DNA of 31,658 bases from a virus: IMG/VR virus record IMGVR_UViG_3300022074_000218, positions 1 through 31,658 of that record. The stretch is one strand, 5' to 3'. The position numbers and the translations under genes are program-made. Positions within the stretch are counted from its first letter, which is position 1. Every line of letters starts with the position of its first letter. Positions 9,845 through 31,658 of the stretch are shown in pieces. A model generated the notes under the pieces. It saw only the letters and a program-made list of their open reading frames with translations. It was not told the origin of the DNA and did not search any database.

Positions 9845-9863
9845 TAAAGGTCTTTCATGCACG

Positions 9864-9941
9864 CCACTTGCTCTTTAACCTGAAACAAGAAACAGGGCGG
9901 GAGTTACCTCCATCCGCACCACTTGCTCTTAGGAAAAGCAA
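9864..9941 (-). repeat. Two imperfect copies of a CCACTTGCTCTT...CAAGAAAC unit
   Basis: CCACTTGCTCTT occurs at 9864-9875 and again at 9919-9930, and each copy is followed after 8-10 nt by CAAGAAAC. In the second copy CTTGCT pairs with AGCAAG over a 9-nt loop. The pair lies in the untranslated stretch after the gene at 9951-10160 and before its terminator; it may be a structured 3' end or a small RNA. I see no gene here. Confidence 0.45.
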
Positions 9942-9950
9942 GAAACCAAT

Positions 9951-10512: not shown

Positions 10513-10724
10513 GCTACCTCCACAGTTTCAAGATCAATAGCAACTTGTTCCATCAAAATATCATAATCATCAAGCGGATCACCAGAAAAAACTACTCCAC
10601 TGTTTTCATAATAACGACGGACCTTTTTGAGAAGTTTCGGATTCTTCACATCCAGGAAGAACTCACCATTTACAGCACCACGAAGGGTTTGAATGTCTTT
10701 CTTGAACTTGCTAGTCAGTGTCAT
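10509..10724 (-). CDS. Small hypothetical protein behind a sigma70-type promoter
   Basis: This 71-aa soluble protein begins MTLTSKFKKDIQTLRGAVNG. Its sequence includes GEFFLDVKNPKLLKKVRRYY and GVVFSGDPLDDYDILMEQVA. I do not recognise a family. The ATG at 10724 is preferred; a longer reading would need a TTG start inside the -35 box of the promoter at 10747-10775. It is followed by a GTGA-coupled second small gene. Its position straight after a consensus host-type promoter suggests early expression. Confidence 0.7.
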   Translation of the reverse strand: MTLTSKFKKDIQTLRGAVNGEFFLDVKNPKLLKKVRRYYENSGVVFSGDPLDDYDILMEQVAIDLETVEVA

Positions 10725-10746
10725 TGTTTTGTTTGTTGACCTTAGT

Positions 10747-10775
10747 ATTATAAGGGATTGACGGCGAACCGTCAA
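10747..10775 (-). promoter_or_regulatory. Sigma70-type promoter with a dyad over the -35 box
   Basis: TTGACG (10770-10775), 17 nt, then a perfect TATAAT (10747-10752). The -35 box is one arm of a perfect dyad TTGACGG-CGAA-CCGTCAA on the plus strand (10758-10775), just 2 nt past the 3' end of tRNA-Ile. The dyad could be an operator or a processing/termination hairpin of the tRNA transcript. Confidence 0.78.
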
Positions 10776-10776
10776 G

Positions 10777-10848
10777 TAGGACTGCCGGGACTTGAACCCG
10801 GATCACTCCGTTATAAGCAGAGGGCCTTTACCCTTAGGCGACAGTCCC
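10777..10848 (-). tRNA. tRNA-Ile (anticodon TAT)
   Basis: The minus strand folds into a full cloverleaf. It has acceptor GGGACTG with a G1-U72 wobble, T8, a D stem GCCT/AGGC, anticodon stem CTCTG/CGGAG with loop CTTATAA, a 4-nt variable region, T stem CCGGG/CCCGG with loop TTCAAGT, and discriminator A73. CCA is not encoded. The anticodon UAU reads AUA; most bacteria use a CAU anticodon with lysidine for this codon. The 5' 15 nt overlap the end of talC. Confidence 0.85.
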
Positions 10849-11487
10849 ATGGACTACCTTCCAATCAGCATCAAAGATTTCCAAACCTTTATCGGTAAGG
10901 ATATGATCATACATCTGATCAAAAACCTTTGGGGGTAAAGTGCAAATTTCTGCACCATTGTACCAAGAACGAATTGCTCTCTGTACATTTCTGATTGAAG
11001 CAGATAGAACCTGAGTCGGAACTCTATGTATTCGATAAAGTTCCGAAATAGATCTTACTACTTCCAATCCAGCAACAGACTGATCATCCAATCTTCCTAC
11101 AAAAGGAGAAACATAAGTTGCTCCTGCTTTTGCTGCTAGAACCGCTTGTGCGGCACAGAAGATCAATGTTACGTTAGTCCTTATCTTTTCTTTTGCCAAC
11201 TCTCTGCAAACCAACAAACCATCCTTTGTCATAGGCAGTTTAATTGTTGCCACACTACCGAACTTATCTACAAGACGAAGTCCTTCATCCAGCATAGTTT
11301 GTGCATCTCCAACTACTTCCATGCTGATGTCTTGTACACCCATGTCTTTGATCTCTTGGTAGACTGCTTCAGGATCTCTACCAGATTTGCGAATTAATGA
11401 TGGGTTAGTAGTAATTCCGTCAACCAATCCTGTTTCAAAACGGTCTCTAATGATTTCTGTATCTGCGGTATCAAGAAAAATTTTCAT
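10834..11487 (-). CDS. talC: Transaldolase, TalC type
   Basis: This 217-aa protein is the short TalC/fructose-6-phosphate-aldolase-type transaldolase common in cyanophages. MKIFLDTADTEIIRD, VDGITTNPSLI, and SVATIKLPMTKDG with the Schiff-base Lys near residue 86 are diagnostic. TNVTLIFCAAQAVLAAKAGA and YVSPFVGRLDD follow. Transaldolase links sedoheptulose-7-phosphate and glyceraldehyde-3-phosphate to erythrose-4-phosphate and fructose-6-phosphate, feeding the pentose phosphate pathway with Zwf and Gnd encoded nearby. The ATG overlaps the stop of the Phd-like gene as ATGA. The final codons GTC GCC TAA lie inside the tRNA-Ile gene. Confidence 0.95.
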   Translation of the reverse strand: MKIFLDTADTEIIRDRFETGLVDGITTNPSLIRKSGRDPEAVYQEIKDMGVQDISMEVVGDAQTMLDEGLRLVDKFGSVATIKLPMTKDGLLVCRELAKEKIRTNVTLIFCAAQAVLAAKAGATYVSPFVGRLDDQSVAGLEVVRSISELYRIHRVPTQVLSASIRNVQRAIRSWYNGAEICTLPPKVFDQMYDHILTDKGLEIFDADWKVVHGTVA

Positions 11488-11657
11488 TGTGCTTCGTTGT
11501 TCAATTCAGTATAGAGTTTAATAAGTTCGTTATCTGCGGGGACCATAACTGCTTTCTCCCCTTTCTCATTTACTATTCCAATGGTTTCACCATTTTCCAC
11601 CCTTTCAAACAATTCATTCCAGTTTTCTTCCCAGTGTTTCACCGAATAAAATTCCAT
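11484..11657 (-). CDS. Orphan Phd/YefM-like antitoxin-type protein
   Basis: This 57-aa protein begins MEFYSVKHWEENWNELFERV and continues ENGETIGIVNEKGEKAVMVP. This matches the layout of Phd/YefM antitoxins: a short strand, a helix with a V-E-N-G-E turn, then I-x-x-x-x-G-x-x-A-V-x-V-P. Family members bind DNA as dimers through this N-terminal fold and neutralise a toxin with the C-terminus. No toxin gene is next to it; the following gene, talC, is joined by an ATGA overlap. The start avoids a longer reading that would run through tRNA-Pro. It may regulate its own promoter or counter a host toxin. Confidence 0.6.
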   Translation of the reverse strand: MEFYSVKHWEENWNELFERVENGETIGIVNEKGEKAVMVPADNELIKLYTELNNEAQ

Positions 11658-11677
11658 AGTTGAATTATGTATAAGAG

Positions 11678-11751
11678 TCGGAACGATAGGATTTGAACCT
11701 ACGGCCGCCCGCTCCCAAAGCGGGTGCTCTACCAAACTGAGCTACGTTCCG
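11678..11751 (-). tRNA. tRNA-Pro (anticodon TGG)
   Basis: Cloverleaf on the minus strand with acceptor CGGAACG/CGTTCCG, anticodon stem CCCGC/GCGGG with loop TTTGGGA, T loop TTCAAAT and discriminator A73. The C1-G72 pair is a proline tRNA feature. It reads CCA. CCA is not encoded. The expected transcription start lies only about 2 nt before the mature 5' end. Confidence 0.95.
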
Positions 11752-11759
11752 TTGTAAGT

Positions 11760-11788
11760 ATTATACACTTACCTGTGCTTCCTGTCAA
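11760..11788 (-). promoter_or_regulatory. Perfect sigma70 promoter of tRNA-Pro
   Basis: TTGACA (11783-11788), exactly 17 nt, TATAAT (11760-11765). The -10 box is flanked by a perfect dyad, GTAAGT (11754-11759) and ACTTAC (11767-11772). It should drive tRNA-Pro, the Phd-like gene, talC and tRNA-Ile. The -35 box lies inside the coding end of the small membrane protein gene upstream. Confidence 0.88.
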
Positions 11789-11933
11789 AGGGTTCCCAGT
11801 GTTCCCAACCATATTTGTGGACTGCCCACATTCCTAAGATAGGAACGAACACTAGTGCTAAACACATGGGTGCTAGTGTAAATGGATTATTCAGCACCCA
11901 TGCAGCAAAGTGTCCTGCCTTATGTATAATCAT
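11769..11933 (-). CDS. Small single-span membrane protein
   Basis: This 54-aa protein begins MIIHKAGHFAAWVLNNPFTL and has one hydrophobic segment (about residues 18-36, TLAPMCLALVFVPILGMWAV), followed by a Trp/His-rich basic tail. GAGG lies 9 nt before the ATG at 11933; in-frame ATGs at 11939 and 11942 are possible but too close to it. The start overlaps the end of the acidic miniprotein gene. Function unknown. Confidence 0.65.
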   Translation of the reverse strand: MIIHKAGHFAAWVLNNPFTLAPMCLALVFVPILGMWAVHKYGWEHWEPFDRKHR

Positions 11934-12048
11934 CTTCATCATCCTCGTAAAGTGGACAAGGTTCCTCAAAAAGATGTTGCATTCTAAGTTGCTTAATTCT
12001 TTCTCTAAGTTGTTTGTAGAACTCTCGTTTCTGATCTTCGTCCATCAT
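11920..12048 (-). CDS. Acidic-tailed miniprotein coupled to zwf
   Basis: This 42-aa protein begins MMDEDQKREFYKQLRERIKQ, an amphipathic basic helix, and ends in a very acidic tail (YEDDEDDYT). The ATG at 12048 overlaps the TGA stop of zwf as ATGA, the coupling seen at other real junctions here, and the 3' end overlaps the next small gene. The helix-plus-acidic-tail pattern might bind a protein partner such as the dehydrogenase encoded just before it. That idea rests only on position. Confidence 0.6.
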   Translation of the reverse strand: MMDEDQKREFYKQLRERIKQLRMQHLFEEPCPLYEDDEDDYT

Positions 12049-13379
12049 CCTGGATAATCCCATGTGGTGATTTGGTCTGTTTTATGAAGAGGACCCCATG
12101 TTCCACCCCTATAAACATAGGGAGTAGTTCTAATGGGACACTCATCTCCAGTACAAAGAAGGTCATCAACAATACGCCAAGACTCAGTTACTTCCTCTGC
12201 ATGAACAAAGTGTGACTGGTCTCCACGCAATGCATCATAAAAAAGTTTTACATAACCATCAATAGCATTATTAGAATACCAATGTGTAAGTGTTGCTGTC
12301 TCCACTTTATCTTCTAAACCAGGTGCCTTCATATCCAAACGGATATCAAGATGAGGTCTGGGTTGAATTCTCATTACAATACGGTCATTATATTCATGAC
12401 CTTCAAATAAATTCAGTGGAGGTGCTTTCAGTTTAATAACAACTTCAGCACAAGTATAGGGCATTTTCTTACCCGTCATGAAGTGAAAAGGAACTCCTTT
12501 CCAACGCCAGTTATCGACATATATGTCACCAGCAACATAGGTAGGAGTACCACTGTTAGGATCAACGCCCTCTTCATTACGATAATCATCATACTGTCCG
12601 CAAATAAGTTTGTCACCAAGTCTTGCCGCAGACAGAACTTTTACCTTCTCTCTACGAATTTCTGTAGCATTGTTTTTACAAGGTGCTTCCATAGCAATAA
12701 GTGCTAAGATTTGAAGCATGTGATTCTGCAGCATATCCCTTACGGCACCTGCAGTTTCATAATATTGAGATCGTCCTTCACATCCAATACTCTCTGTAGC
12801 AAAGATTTGAACTTCTTCTATGAAGTTCCTGTTCCAAAGTGGTTCAAGTAGAGTATTGCTAAAACGGGTAGCAAGAATATTATTGACAGTATCTTTACCA
12901 AGATAATGGTCAATGCGATATACTTGTTTCTCGCGTAAACATCCAGTAACCACAGATTGTAAATAATTAGCAGATTGAAGATCGGTCCCAAAAGGTTTTT
13001 CAATAACGACTCTAGTTTTGTCTGGGTCATTAACTAATCCTGCTGCTTTTAGGTTTCTAATAGCATCGCCATACCTTTCAGGTGGAACCGAAAGGAAATA
13101 AGTCATATCATCAGTCTGAGGAATAGATGCAAGTGAATCTACATTGCTCAAATCACATTGGTGATAATCTAATTTTACAGAGAAGTCACCTTTATAATAT
13201 GTTCCAAGACTTTCTAACCAACTTTGACGATCATGTCCTGTTCGTGATGCACCAATGATTCTAAAATCTTCAGGAAGAAGATTTCTATCATGGAGATTTG
13301 CAAGCGCAGGAATAAGTTTCCTACGGCAAAGGTCTCCGGTAGCACCGAAGATTACAAGTGTTCTAGTGGGCAGTTCCAT
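12045..13379 (-). CDS. zwf: Glucose-6-phosphate 1-dehydrogenase
   Basis: This 444-aa protein catalyses the first oxidative pentose-phosphate step, glucose-6-phosphate to 6-phosphogluconolactone with NADPH formation. The N-terminus has the dinucleotide motif LVIFGATGDLCRRKLIPAL. VVIEKPFGTD and the active-site signature RIDHYLGKDTVNN follow, then FRSP-like substrate-binding stretches such as WRWKGVPFHFMTGKKMP. It is a little shorter than typical bacterial enzymes (about 480-510 aa). AAAGGA precedes the ATG at 13379. The start overlaps a small membrane protein gene and the stop overlaps an acidic miniprotein gene. Cyanophages carry zwf and gnd together to draw NADPH and pentoses from host carbon. 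Confidence 0.95.
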   Translation of the reverse strand: MELPTRTLVIFGATGDLCRRKLIPALANLHDRNLLPEDFRIIGASRTGHDRQSWLESLGTYYKGDFSVKLDYHQCDLSNVDSLASIPQTDDMTYFLSVPPERYGDAIRNLKAAGLVNDPDKTRVVIEKPFGTDLQSANYLQSVVTGCLREKQVYRIDHYLGKDTVNNILATRFSNTLLEPLWNRNFIEEVQIFATESIGCEGRSQYYETAGAVRDMLQNHMLQILALIAMEAPCKNNATEIRREKVKVLSAARLGDKLICGQYDDYRNEEGVDPNSGTPTYVAGDIYVDNWRWKGVPFHFMTGKKMPYTCAEVVIKLKAPPLNLFEGHEYNDRIVMRIQPRPHLDIRLDMKAPGLEDKVETATLTHWYSNNAIDGYVKLFYDALRGDQSHFVHAEEVTESWRIVDDLLCTGDECPIRTTPYVYRGGTWGPLHKTDQITTWDYPG

Positions 13380-13494
13380 TTCCTTTATAATTCTCTGTTT
13401 CGTAATAGTTATTCTCACCCTTTCTGTGCCCGAAATAAATGGTGGCACATACAAAGGGTAGTGCTCCCCAAAGTAAGACATCGGCAAAAGTCAT
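13363..13494 (-). CDS. Miniature membrane protein between gnd and zwf
   Basis: This 43-aa protein begins MTFADVLLWGALPFVCATIY, a single hydrophobic span. It is followed by a polar tail (FGHRKGENNYYETENYKGNG). Its ATG overlaps the TGA of the zinc miniprotein gene as ATGA, and its end overlaps the first codons of zwf. Small membrane proteins of this type recur through the region 11769-16269. Function unknown. Confidence 0.6.
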   Translation of the reverse strand: MTFADVLLWGALPFVCATIYFGHRKGENNYYETENYKGNGTAH

Positions 13495-13619
13495 TTTTTA
13501 GTTGGTCCAAAAACAATACATTTTCTACAGTTAGGACCTTCGCACTCCCAACCTTTATGGCAATAATCACAACCTTTACCACCACACTTAATGCAAACTA
13601 CGTGAGATTTATCGGACAT
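13491..13619 (-). CDS. Cysteine-rich zinc miniprotein
   Basis: This 42-aa protein contains eight... in fact seven cysteines in the order CIKCGGKGCDYC, then WEC, NCRKC. The CxxCxGxGCxxC core resembles one half of the DnaJ/tryptophan-RNA-binding anti-TRAP zinc fold, and seven Cys plus a His could bind one or two zinc ions. The gene starts inside the end of gnd (11-nt overlap) and overlaps the next miniature gene as ATGA. It might act as a small chaperone-like or regulatory factor for the pentose-phosphate enzymes; this is inference from position. Confidence 0.65.
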   Translation of the reverse strand: MSDKSHVVCIKCGGKGCDYCHKGWECEGPNCRKCIVFGPTKK

Positions 13620-16858: not shown

Positions 16859-16877
16859 ATAAGAAGACCCGAAGGTC

Positions 16878-17534
16878 TTATGAGAGAATTGGAATGTTTT
16901 CTGTGATAGATTCAGAACCTCCAAGGATAAAACTCTCAGGATTAAATCCCCAATTGTATTGTAATGCTTGTTTATCTAGATCGGTAAAACCAAAGTATCT
17001 AAACATACGCATACCATTAGGAAAGAAACGAAATACATTATAAGACATAATAGTGTCTTCTACGGTAAAGTCTGGGTGAGCACCCTCACCACGAGGATGT
17101 CCAAGTCCTAAAGCATGACCAATCTCATGACGAAGAACATACTTCTCAAGAAAATCAACATGCGAATCATCATCTCTAACAAAAATTTTGATTCTATTGG
17201 GACGAGCAGAAGCACGTCCTACTACAGCTTCTTGAAGAGCAAAATCTCTATCTTTTAGTCCATGATCATTCTTCTTACTATTTTCATAGTTAGTAGAATC
17301 TGTAATTTCCTCAGTATAGATAAACCTAATATCATCATTTTTCTTTTTGGTTTTTACAAAAGAAATACCAGTAAGATCATCAATCTCTTGAAGAGTAGAT
17401 TTAATTTCCTTACGCTCAAGGAAAGAAAGTCCTTTCTTTTTCCAAGAGTAATTAATTATCTTGTCACCACCAGAAAGGTAATTGATATAATTAAACCAAG
17501 GTGTTGAAATAATATCGGTTACACTTTTTTTCAT
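16878..17534 (-). CDS. M10/serralysin-like zinc metalloprotease
   Basis: This 218-aa protein has the full metzincin zinc site LRHEIGHALGLGHPRGEG (HExGHxxGxxH, about residue 136 on). A Met-turn IMSYN follows about 20 residues later, and the C-terminal FTDLDKQALQYNWG corresponds to the serralysin/matrixin helix (LDIxAIQxLYG). Upstream, FNYINYLSGGDKIINYSW matches the start of M10B catalytic domains. It lacks a signal peptide, a prodomain with a Cys switch and RTX repeats, so it is a bare catalytic domain, likely intracellular or packaged. It lies between tRNA-Gly and tRNA-Asn in a tRNA operon. No ribosome site is obvious before the ATG at 17534. Role unknown: prohead maturation or host protein cleavage are guesses. 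Confidence 0.8.
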   Translation of the reverse strand: MKKSVTDIISTPWFNYINYLSGGDKIINYSWKKKGLSFLERKEIKSTLQEIDDLTGISFVKTKKKNDDIRFIYTEEITDSTNYENSKKNDHGLKDRDFALQEAVVGRASARPNRIKIFVRDDDSHVDFLEKYVLRHEIGHALGLGHPRGEGAHPDFTVEDTIMSYNVFRFFPNGMRMFRYFGFTDLDKQALQYNWGFNPESFILGGSESITENIPILS

Positions 17535-17720: not shown

Positions 17721-17737
17721 TGGTAACTAAGTTACCA
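17721..17737 (-). other. Hairpin between tRNA-Thr and tRNA-Arg
   Basis: TGGTAAC-TTA-GTTACCA is a perfect 7-bp stem with a 3-nt loop in the 21-nt spacer of two tRNAs. No T run follows, so it is more likely an RNA processing signal than a terminator. Confidence 0.45.
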
Positions 17738-17738
17738 A

Positions 17739-17812
17739 CGACTCAGGTAGGACTCGAACCTACGACCGACTGCTTAGAAGGCAGTTGCTCTATCCATCTG
17801 AGCTACTGAGTC
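17739..17812 (-). tRNA. tRNA-Arg (anticodon TCT)
   Basis: Cloverleaf with acceptor GACTCAG/CTGAGTC, anticodon stem ACTGC/GCAGT with loop CTTCTAA, T loop TTCGAGT, discriminator G73. It reads AGA. It is the first gene of the tRNA operon, about 11 nt after the expected transcription start. Confidence 0.95.
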
Positions 17813-17829
17813 ATTTGCTTGCCTTGTGC

Positions 17830-17858
17830 ATTATAGGACACAAGGCATAGATTGTCAA
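17830..17858 (-). promoter_or_regulatory. Perfect sigma70 promoter of the tRNA operon
   Basis: TTGACA (17853-17858), exactly 17 nt, TATAAT (17830-17835). The -10 lies in the loop of a perfect 8-bp dyad, GCCTTGTG (17821-17828) and CACAAGGC (17839-17846). The -35 contains the TGA stop of the gene upstream. It should drive tRNA-Arg, -Thr, -Gly, the metalloprotease and tRNA-Asn/-Val. Confidence 0.9.
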
Positions 17859-31348: not shown

Positions 31349-31658
31349 AACTTAAATCCCTCAAATGATTTCTTTGGTTTTGGTTCCTCATAATTATACT
31401 CCTCTTCCTTCCCACTGTCAATGATGTCTTCCTGTGCTGACTGCTCACAATCATACAGACGCATCTTGGCACGGTCAATACCAACCACAAACCTTTTGTA
31501 TATAGTTGGATCATTATATCGGTTCTTCAACTGCTTCACCATAATTTGTCCGAGTCCCTCAAGGTCATCTGTAGAAATAAGGGCAAACATAAGATCAGCA
31601 GTAGCAGGCAAACCAAAGGACTCACTAGTATCAGTGAGCTCAACATCGCTGCTACCAT
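31345..31658 (-). CDS. Replicative DNA helicase gp41, C-terminal part
   Basis: The visible 104 codons are the end of a T4 gp41-type hexameric helicase; the rest lies beyond the right edge. GSSDVELTDTSESFGLPATA matches T4 gp41 SSDVNMSDIAESAGLPATAD, the RecA-fold region near motif H4, and LMFALISTDDLEGLGQIMVK then QLKNRYND continue the match. The C-terminal tail KSFEGFKF is aromatic-ended like T4. The helicase unwinds DNA 5' to 3' and works with the gp61 primase encoded at 22143-23120. Downstream, a TTG-start gene overlaps the stop. Confidence 0.9.
   Translation of the reverse strand, partial: GSSDVELTDTSESFGLPATADLMFALISTDDLEGLGQIMVKQLKNRYNDPTIYKRFVVGIDRAKMRLYDCEQSAQEDIIDSGKEEEYNYEEPKPKKSFEGFKF

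Follow-up and report, generated by a model that had tools for sequence, protein, structure and literature searches.

What is the role of an inverted repeat that encloses the -10 hexamer of a promoter lying directly before a phage tRNA gene? The question arises from a 31,658-base viral contig (the window, by which we mean the whole stretch analyzed), which, judging by its matches, comes from a T4-like cyanophage. On the minus strand, positions 11788..11752 read TTGACA GGAAGCACAGGTAAGTG TATAAT ACTTACAA, with a gene for tRNA-Pro (anticodon TGG, 11677..11751, minus strand, found by tRNA calling) directly 3'. The -35 hexamer TTGACA (11783..11788) and the -10 hexamer TATAAT (11760..11765), 17 bp apart and 5' of the gene, make up a predicted promoter of perfect sigma-70 consensus, and the arms GTAAGT (11767..11772) and ACTTAC (11754..11759) lie exactly around the -10, as an earlier note on this DNA had claimed and as we confirmed on the minus strand at 11788-11760. 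The dyad, GTAAGT-GTATAAT-ACTTAC, is 19 nt long (11772..11754), with 6-bp arms and a 7-nt loop that holds the -10 hexamer; it is present once in the window, where none would be expected even with up to three mismatches allowed. The right arm occupies the discriminator (-6 to -1), and the usual spacing from the -10 places the predicted transcription start at 11753, 2 nt before tRNA-Pro, in agreement with the earlier suggestion that the tRNA would be almost leaderless.

The coding end (..PFDRKHR*) of an upstream co-directional ORF (11769..11969, minus strand; phrog_1184, E 1e-28, function unassigned) takes in the -35 hexamer, the greater part of the spacer and some of the left arm; the TAA stop codon of this ORF (11771-11769) falls within the left arm. 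A spacer motif found in relatives, CACAAGTAG, had seemed regulatory but was rejected, because it encodes the last residues (..PFDxGHK*) of the upstream gene's product. On the other side, a 57-aa Phd-like ORF (11484..11657, minus strand; phrog_375, E 1e-10) starts 19 nt 3' of tRNA-Pro, and the transaldolase gene talC (PF00923, phrog_440) occupies 10834..11487 on the same strand. The window contains three perfect promoters, two of which (11760-11788 and 17830-17858, the latter also on the minus strand) are each located directly 5' of a tRNA. The second precedes tRNA-Arg (17738-17813) and carries the dyad TGCCTTGTG-tccTATAATg-CACAAGGCA (17820..17847, minus strand). The two had been said to share one geometry, which holds for the arms flanking the -10 but not for their dimensions, a loop of 7 with 6-bp arms as against a loop of 10 with 9-bp arms. 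Sequence similar to the third match (31393-31421) is apparently coding in other cyanophages, and this match is probably not a real promoter.

Taken alone, the 6-bp dyad at 11754-11772 is weak, because arms of at least 6 bp are expected by chance at about 2% of such promoters in a re-pairing control. We compared phage tRNA promoters as a group, using consensus promoters, tRNAs defined by ARAGORN or by motif, and gap-free arms. Redundancy was removed by identity-based filters, relatedness thus being partly removed; expected counts were obtained by re-pairing left and right promoter halves, and the collection-wide sets and counts are those among the matches listed. Arms of at least 6 bp were found in 5 promoters of a first set of 40 that included the window's two (0.8 expected), and in 8 of 69 phage tRNA promoters picked blind to the dyad, by promoter and tRNA motif only (1.3 after re-pairing); in the latter set, arms of at least 7 bp occurred in 5 against 0.55 expected. 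Among the matches listed, the tRNA-Pro-like set gave 6/48 with arms of at least 6 bp against 0.96 expected and the tRNA-Arg-like set 10/71 against 1.5, and the pooled 169 phage tRNA promoters gave 16 against 2.7, or 12 against 0.8 for at least 7 bp. When analyzed by family, again among the matches listed, dyads were present at 8/50 tRNA-Pro promoters (0.85 after re-pairing), 16/101 tRNA-Arg promoters (1.9 expected) and 4/12 tRNA-Ile promoters (0.6 expected), with no excess for tRNA-Met, Gly and Leu. Altogether, 34 of 279 non-redundant phage tRNA promoters among the matches listed have a dyad of 6-9 bp enclosing the -10, and the left arms of the 34 come in 30 sequences, which bears out the earlier hunch that different arms in one geometry denote a class.

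Examples are TATGAGGAT-gTATAAT-ATCCTCATA, with the same 7-nt loop as at 11754-11772, and CCTGATG/CATCAGG before tRNA-Pro, and TTGCCTAG-TATAAT-CTAGGCAA and TGACCCCTT/AAGGGGTCA before tRNA-Arg. Among promoters whose right arm is RTGNGGG, the left arm is complementary at no fewer than six of seven positions in 9 of 11 recognized tRNA promoters; mRNA promoters with the same GGGTAATCAA start are mostly without a complementary left arm. A dyad varying freely in relatives had been named in the earlier note as a result that would refute its reading. The arms are indeed diverse, but within the dyad-bearing subset they change together. The nearest orthologues of the tRNA-Pro/Phd locus have the same promoter without a dyad, and the paired change of arms is seen across the class instead. 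A search for the exact dyad as a conserved element was abandoned, as none of the 9 matches listed across viral contigs had a properly placed TTGACA. Most tRNA promoters, including most of those of tRNA-Pro, have no dyad, and the element is therefore dispensable.

The hairpins follow the 5' end of the phage tRNA, because phage tRNAs without a promoter have the same kind of hairpin. Leader stems were found before 130 of 502 promoterless phage tRNAs, compared with 54 and 56 for two control stretches lying upstream, and the 3' end of the stem peaks 4 nt before the tRNA; for all 865 leaders it peaks 4-6 nt before. In 13 complete cyanophage genomes, 32 of 80 leaders contain a stem against 7 and 13 in the controls. 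The window repeats this pattern: alongside tRNA-Arg and tRNA-Pro, its tRNA-Thr and tRNA-Asn have leader hairpins without a perfect promoter, TGGTAAC-tta-GTTACCA (17721..17737, minus strand) 3 nt before the promoterless tRNA-Thr, and AAGACC-ttcg-GGTCTT (16864..16879, minus strand) 4 nt before tRNA-Asn. With 6-bp arms 2 nt from tRNA-Pro, the dyad studied here falls among leader hairpins whose arms are at least 6 bp long and end no more than about 10 nt from the 5' end of a tRNA. At phage promoters that precede no tRNA, dyads are not clearly enriched (6/241 against 3.1 expected, P 0.09, among the matches listed). Bacterial tRNA promoters searched with the same pattern yielded 2/116 against 1.2 expected, none of at least 7 bp, among the matches listed, and bacterial tRNA leaders showed no excess of stems (33/148 against 36 and 22 in controls). 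The common factor of the hairpins is the phage tRNA 5' end and not a repressor site.

We therefore propose, giving it an even chance of being correct, that the dyad specifies a short leader hairpin of variable sequence in the read-through pre-tRNA, placed directly before the phage tRNA. Read-through is plausible because no terminator-like site was found in 10700-13600, including the interval between the phrog_1184 ORF and tRNA-Pro, and because the upstream ORF stops within the left arm. Transcripts entering from the upstream gene would carry both arms and could form a hairpin ending 2 nt short of mature tRNA-Pro; when folded, the read-through RNA is predicted to form GUAAGUGU-AUA-AUACUUAC, 8 bp with one G-U and about -6.6 kcal/mol, and the corresponding RNA before tRNA-Arg a 10-bp hairpin. 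We infer that the element acts as RNA and influences the folding or processing of the pre-tRNA: the hairpin might set the tRNA apart from upstream sequence, preventing its misfolding, and might offer a compact leader for 5' processing, defining what RNase P meets. The -10 would lie in the loop because promoter and hairpin must both fit into the roughly 20 nt before the tRNA and are thus superposed. RNA begun at the local promoter is predicted from its position to start past the right arm, with a 2-nt leader and no hairpin. Two pre-tRNA forms, one structured by read-through and one local and nearly leaderless, would make maturation dependent on promoter and infection stage; this proposal, jointly with the generalization that phages, unlike bacteria, commonly provide their tRNA genes with a private, fast-changing leader hairpin, is tentative and falls well short of an even chance.

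The main rival is a role at the DNA level, in which the inverted repeat in duplex promoter DNA tunes early transcription of the tRNA, either by supercoil-driven extrusion or through a symmetric protein contact tolerant of many sequences. We consider it unlikely but keep it in this place because a role as RNA predicts a sense-strand bias: with a strand-symmetric choice of stems in 237 leaders, the sense RNA is not more stable than the antisense (P 0.35), and beside the stems G-U is not favored over A-C (67 vs 74). An initial positive result for sense over antisense stability was selection-biased and was discarded for the symmetric version. Changes inside families favor G-U over A-C to a modest degree (71 vs 46, P 0.013), in part owing to one tRNA-Ser family. 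The gap between the -10 and the right arm is 0-2 nt in 34/34 dyads, a regularity which would suit a DNA element and is partly fixed by the limits of the search. Such an element would explain neither the same hairpins before promoterless tRNAs nor the lack of clear enrichment where promoters in those phages precede no tRNA. Somewhat less probable still is that the class is real and the repeat at 11754-11772 a chance palindrome. A random rate of about 1.7% per promoter allows for it, and a positional scan of perfect cyanophage promoters, 105 after removal of redundancy and taken from contigs and 13 complete genomes, found no clear excess of dyads centered on the -10; the signal appears only once promoters are split by their downstream feature, at tRNA promoters. 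The excess in the tRNA-Pro family, from whose rate we estimate a rather small chance that this particular dyad is spurious, and the extension of the RNA fold to 8 bp both speak against chance.

Proteins and terminators fare worse. Phd/YefM antitoxins are palindrome-binding autorepressors, and the Phd-like gene stands next to the tRNA; the earlier note had named it a candidate DNA-binding autoregulator, and on this reading the dyad would be the operator through which the Phd-like protein autoregulates the tRNA-Pro/Phd/talC unit. We found no support for this and regard it as highly improbable, since Phd-like genes and dyads occur independently. Dyads are present at tRNA-Pro promoters without a detectable Phd-like gene (loci L363, L476 and L540) and at promoters of tRNA-Arg, Ile, Thr, Leu, Ser and Met, whereas Phd-like genes also follow dyad-free tRNA-Pro promoters (L117, L136, L138, L152, L327, L464 and L467). 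A single autoregulator is unlikely to explain the dyads because the two dyad promoters of one genome differ in their arms, as do orthologues, and no conserved palindrome linked to a Phd gene was seen among tRNA-Pro orthologues. The dyads resemble palindromic -10 operators of the Phd/YefM or TetR type in that an inverted repeat overlaps the -10, but differ from them in their unconserved arms and in having no linked regulator. The 57-aa ORF itself scores 15.9 bits against the Pfam Phd_YefM cut-off of 29.8 and has a tRNA and talC as neighbors; the search for a toxin beside it was non-exhaustive. PeSL cassettes, in which a stem-loop would stop upstream transcription and seed module exchange, have been described in T4-like phages (PMC4503421) and likewise combine a strong sigma-70 promoter with a stem-loop in plastic regions; the present promoters and stem-loops lie near mobile, tRNA-rich loci. 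Compared with those cassettes, the present elements lack a U-tract, place the stem around the -10, differ in arms at almost all loci and are tied to tRNAs. No more than two T occur in the 6 nt past the arm in 28 of the 34 dyads, the local search found no terminator, and promoterless tRNAs would be shut off by a terminator 2-8 nt in front of them, so that a cassette of this kind is very unlikely, if less so than the Phd operator. NtcA boxes have been reported in cyanophages (PMC3037559), and the arms here end in GTA and TAC; a host NtcA box is nonetheless scarcely credible, as GTA-N8-TAC was not found in the dyad region, where the spacing contradicts it, and the site sits over the -10.

The closest parallel to the proposed leader hairpin is found in the T4 gene e, soc and I-TevI leaders, where a hairpin forms in upstream-initiated transcripts and a late promoter is internal; in gene e the promoter lies in the 5' strand of the hairpin and local transcripts escape the structure (PMC3014915). 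Here, too, the hairpin would belong to upstream-initiated RNA, and locally started RNA is predicted from the promoter position to lack the 5' strand and to be unable to fold it. The T4 hairpin, however, masks a ribosome-binding site and its internal promoter is late, whereas the present hairpin abuts a tRNA and the promoter has the sigma-70 consensus. In bacteria, too, a sigma-70 promoter sits just before the tRNA, which RNase P matures, but in the bacterial set tested neither dyads nor leader stems are in excess. What began as a single palindrome becomes a general feature of phage tRNA genes, open to testing and missing from those of bacteria. The feature is relevant to the way in which phages process their tRNAs from dense read-through transcripts, and it cautions against taking -10 palindromes in phages for repressor sites. 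No earlier description of such a leader hairpin or promoter class was found in the literature searched, many subscription papers lying outside its scope.

Several other elements were noticed. Phage tRNA leader hairpins at four groups of loci (L083, L107, L148; L117, L511, L600; L363, L393, L402, L582; L097, L298) have the conserved loops ACTGATCAC, GATCATCATAT, YTGACC and TCTGCAGG with stems that change in pairs, and are possibly distinct RNA elements. At 10747-10848 in the window, a tRNA-Ile gene runs over the 3' end of talC and is directly followed by TTGACGG-TTCG-CCGTCAA and then TATAAT, the 5' strand of this hairpin being a -35-like hexamer. An Rfam search of the window returned the tRNAs and one wcaG RNA, a cis-regulatory RNA family (RF01761, 92 bits; 9853-9950, minus strand), and nothing else. 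Many cyanophage mRNA promoters (L140, L133, L145, L643, L647 and others) have GGGTAATCAA or AGGTAATCAA at the transcript start, a few nt past the -10; at L162, L166 and L170 the transcript-start motif pairs with the -35 region through 12-bp arms, CTTGACTACCCA/TGGGTAGTCAAG. In many cyanophages, weak promoters are followed by a recurrent block near TAGAATAACACTGTAAGGGTTCAA, for example at MW117965 144632, OQ504979 153460, HQ634177 146236, NC_031906 145586 and HQ634175 114004. At L215 (S-PM2, about 7549, minus strand), a perfect 12-bp dyad, AGAAGTATTTTC/GAAAATACTTCT, surrounds a one-mismatch promoter with no known tRNA downstream, and this dyad may be a true operator.
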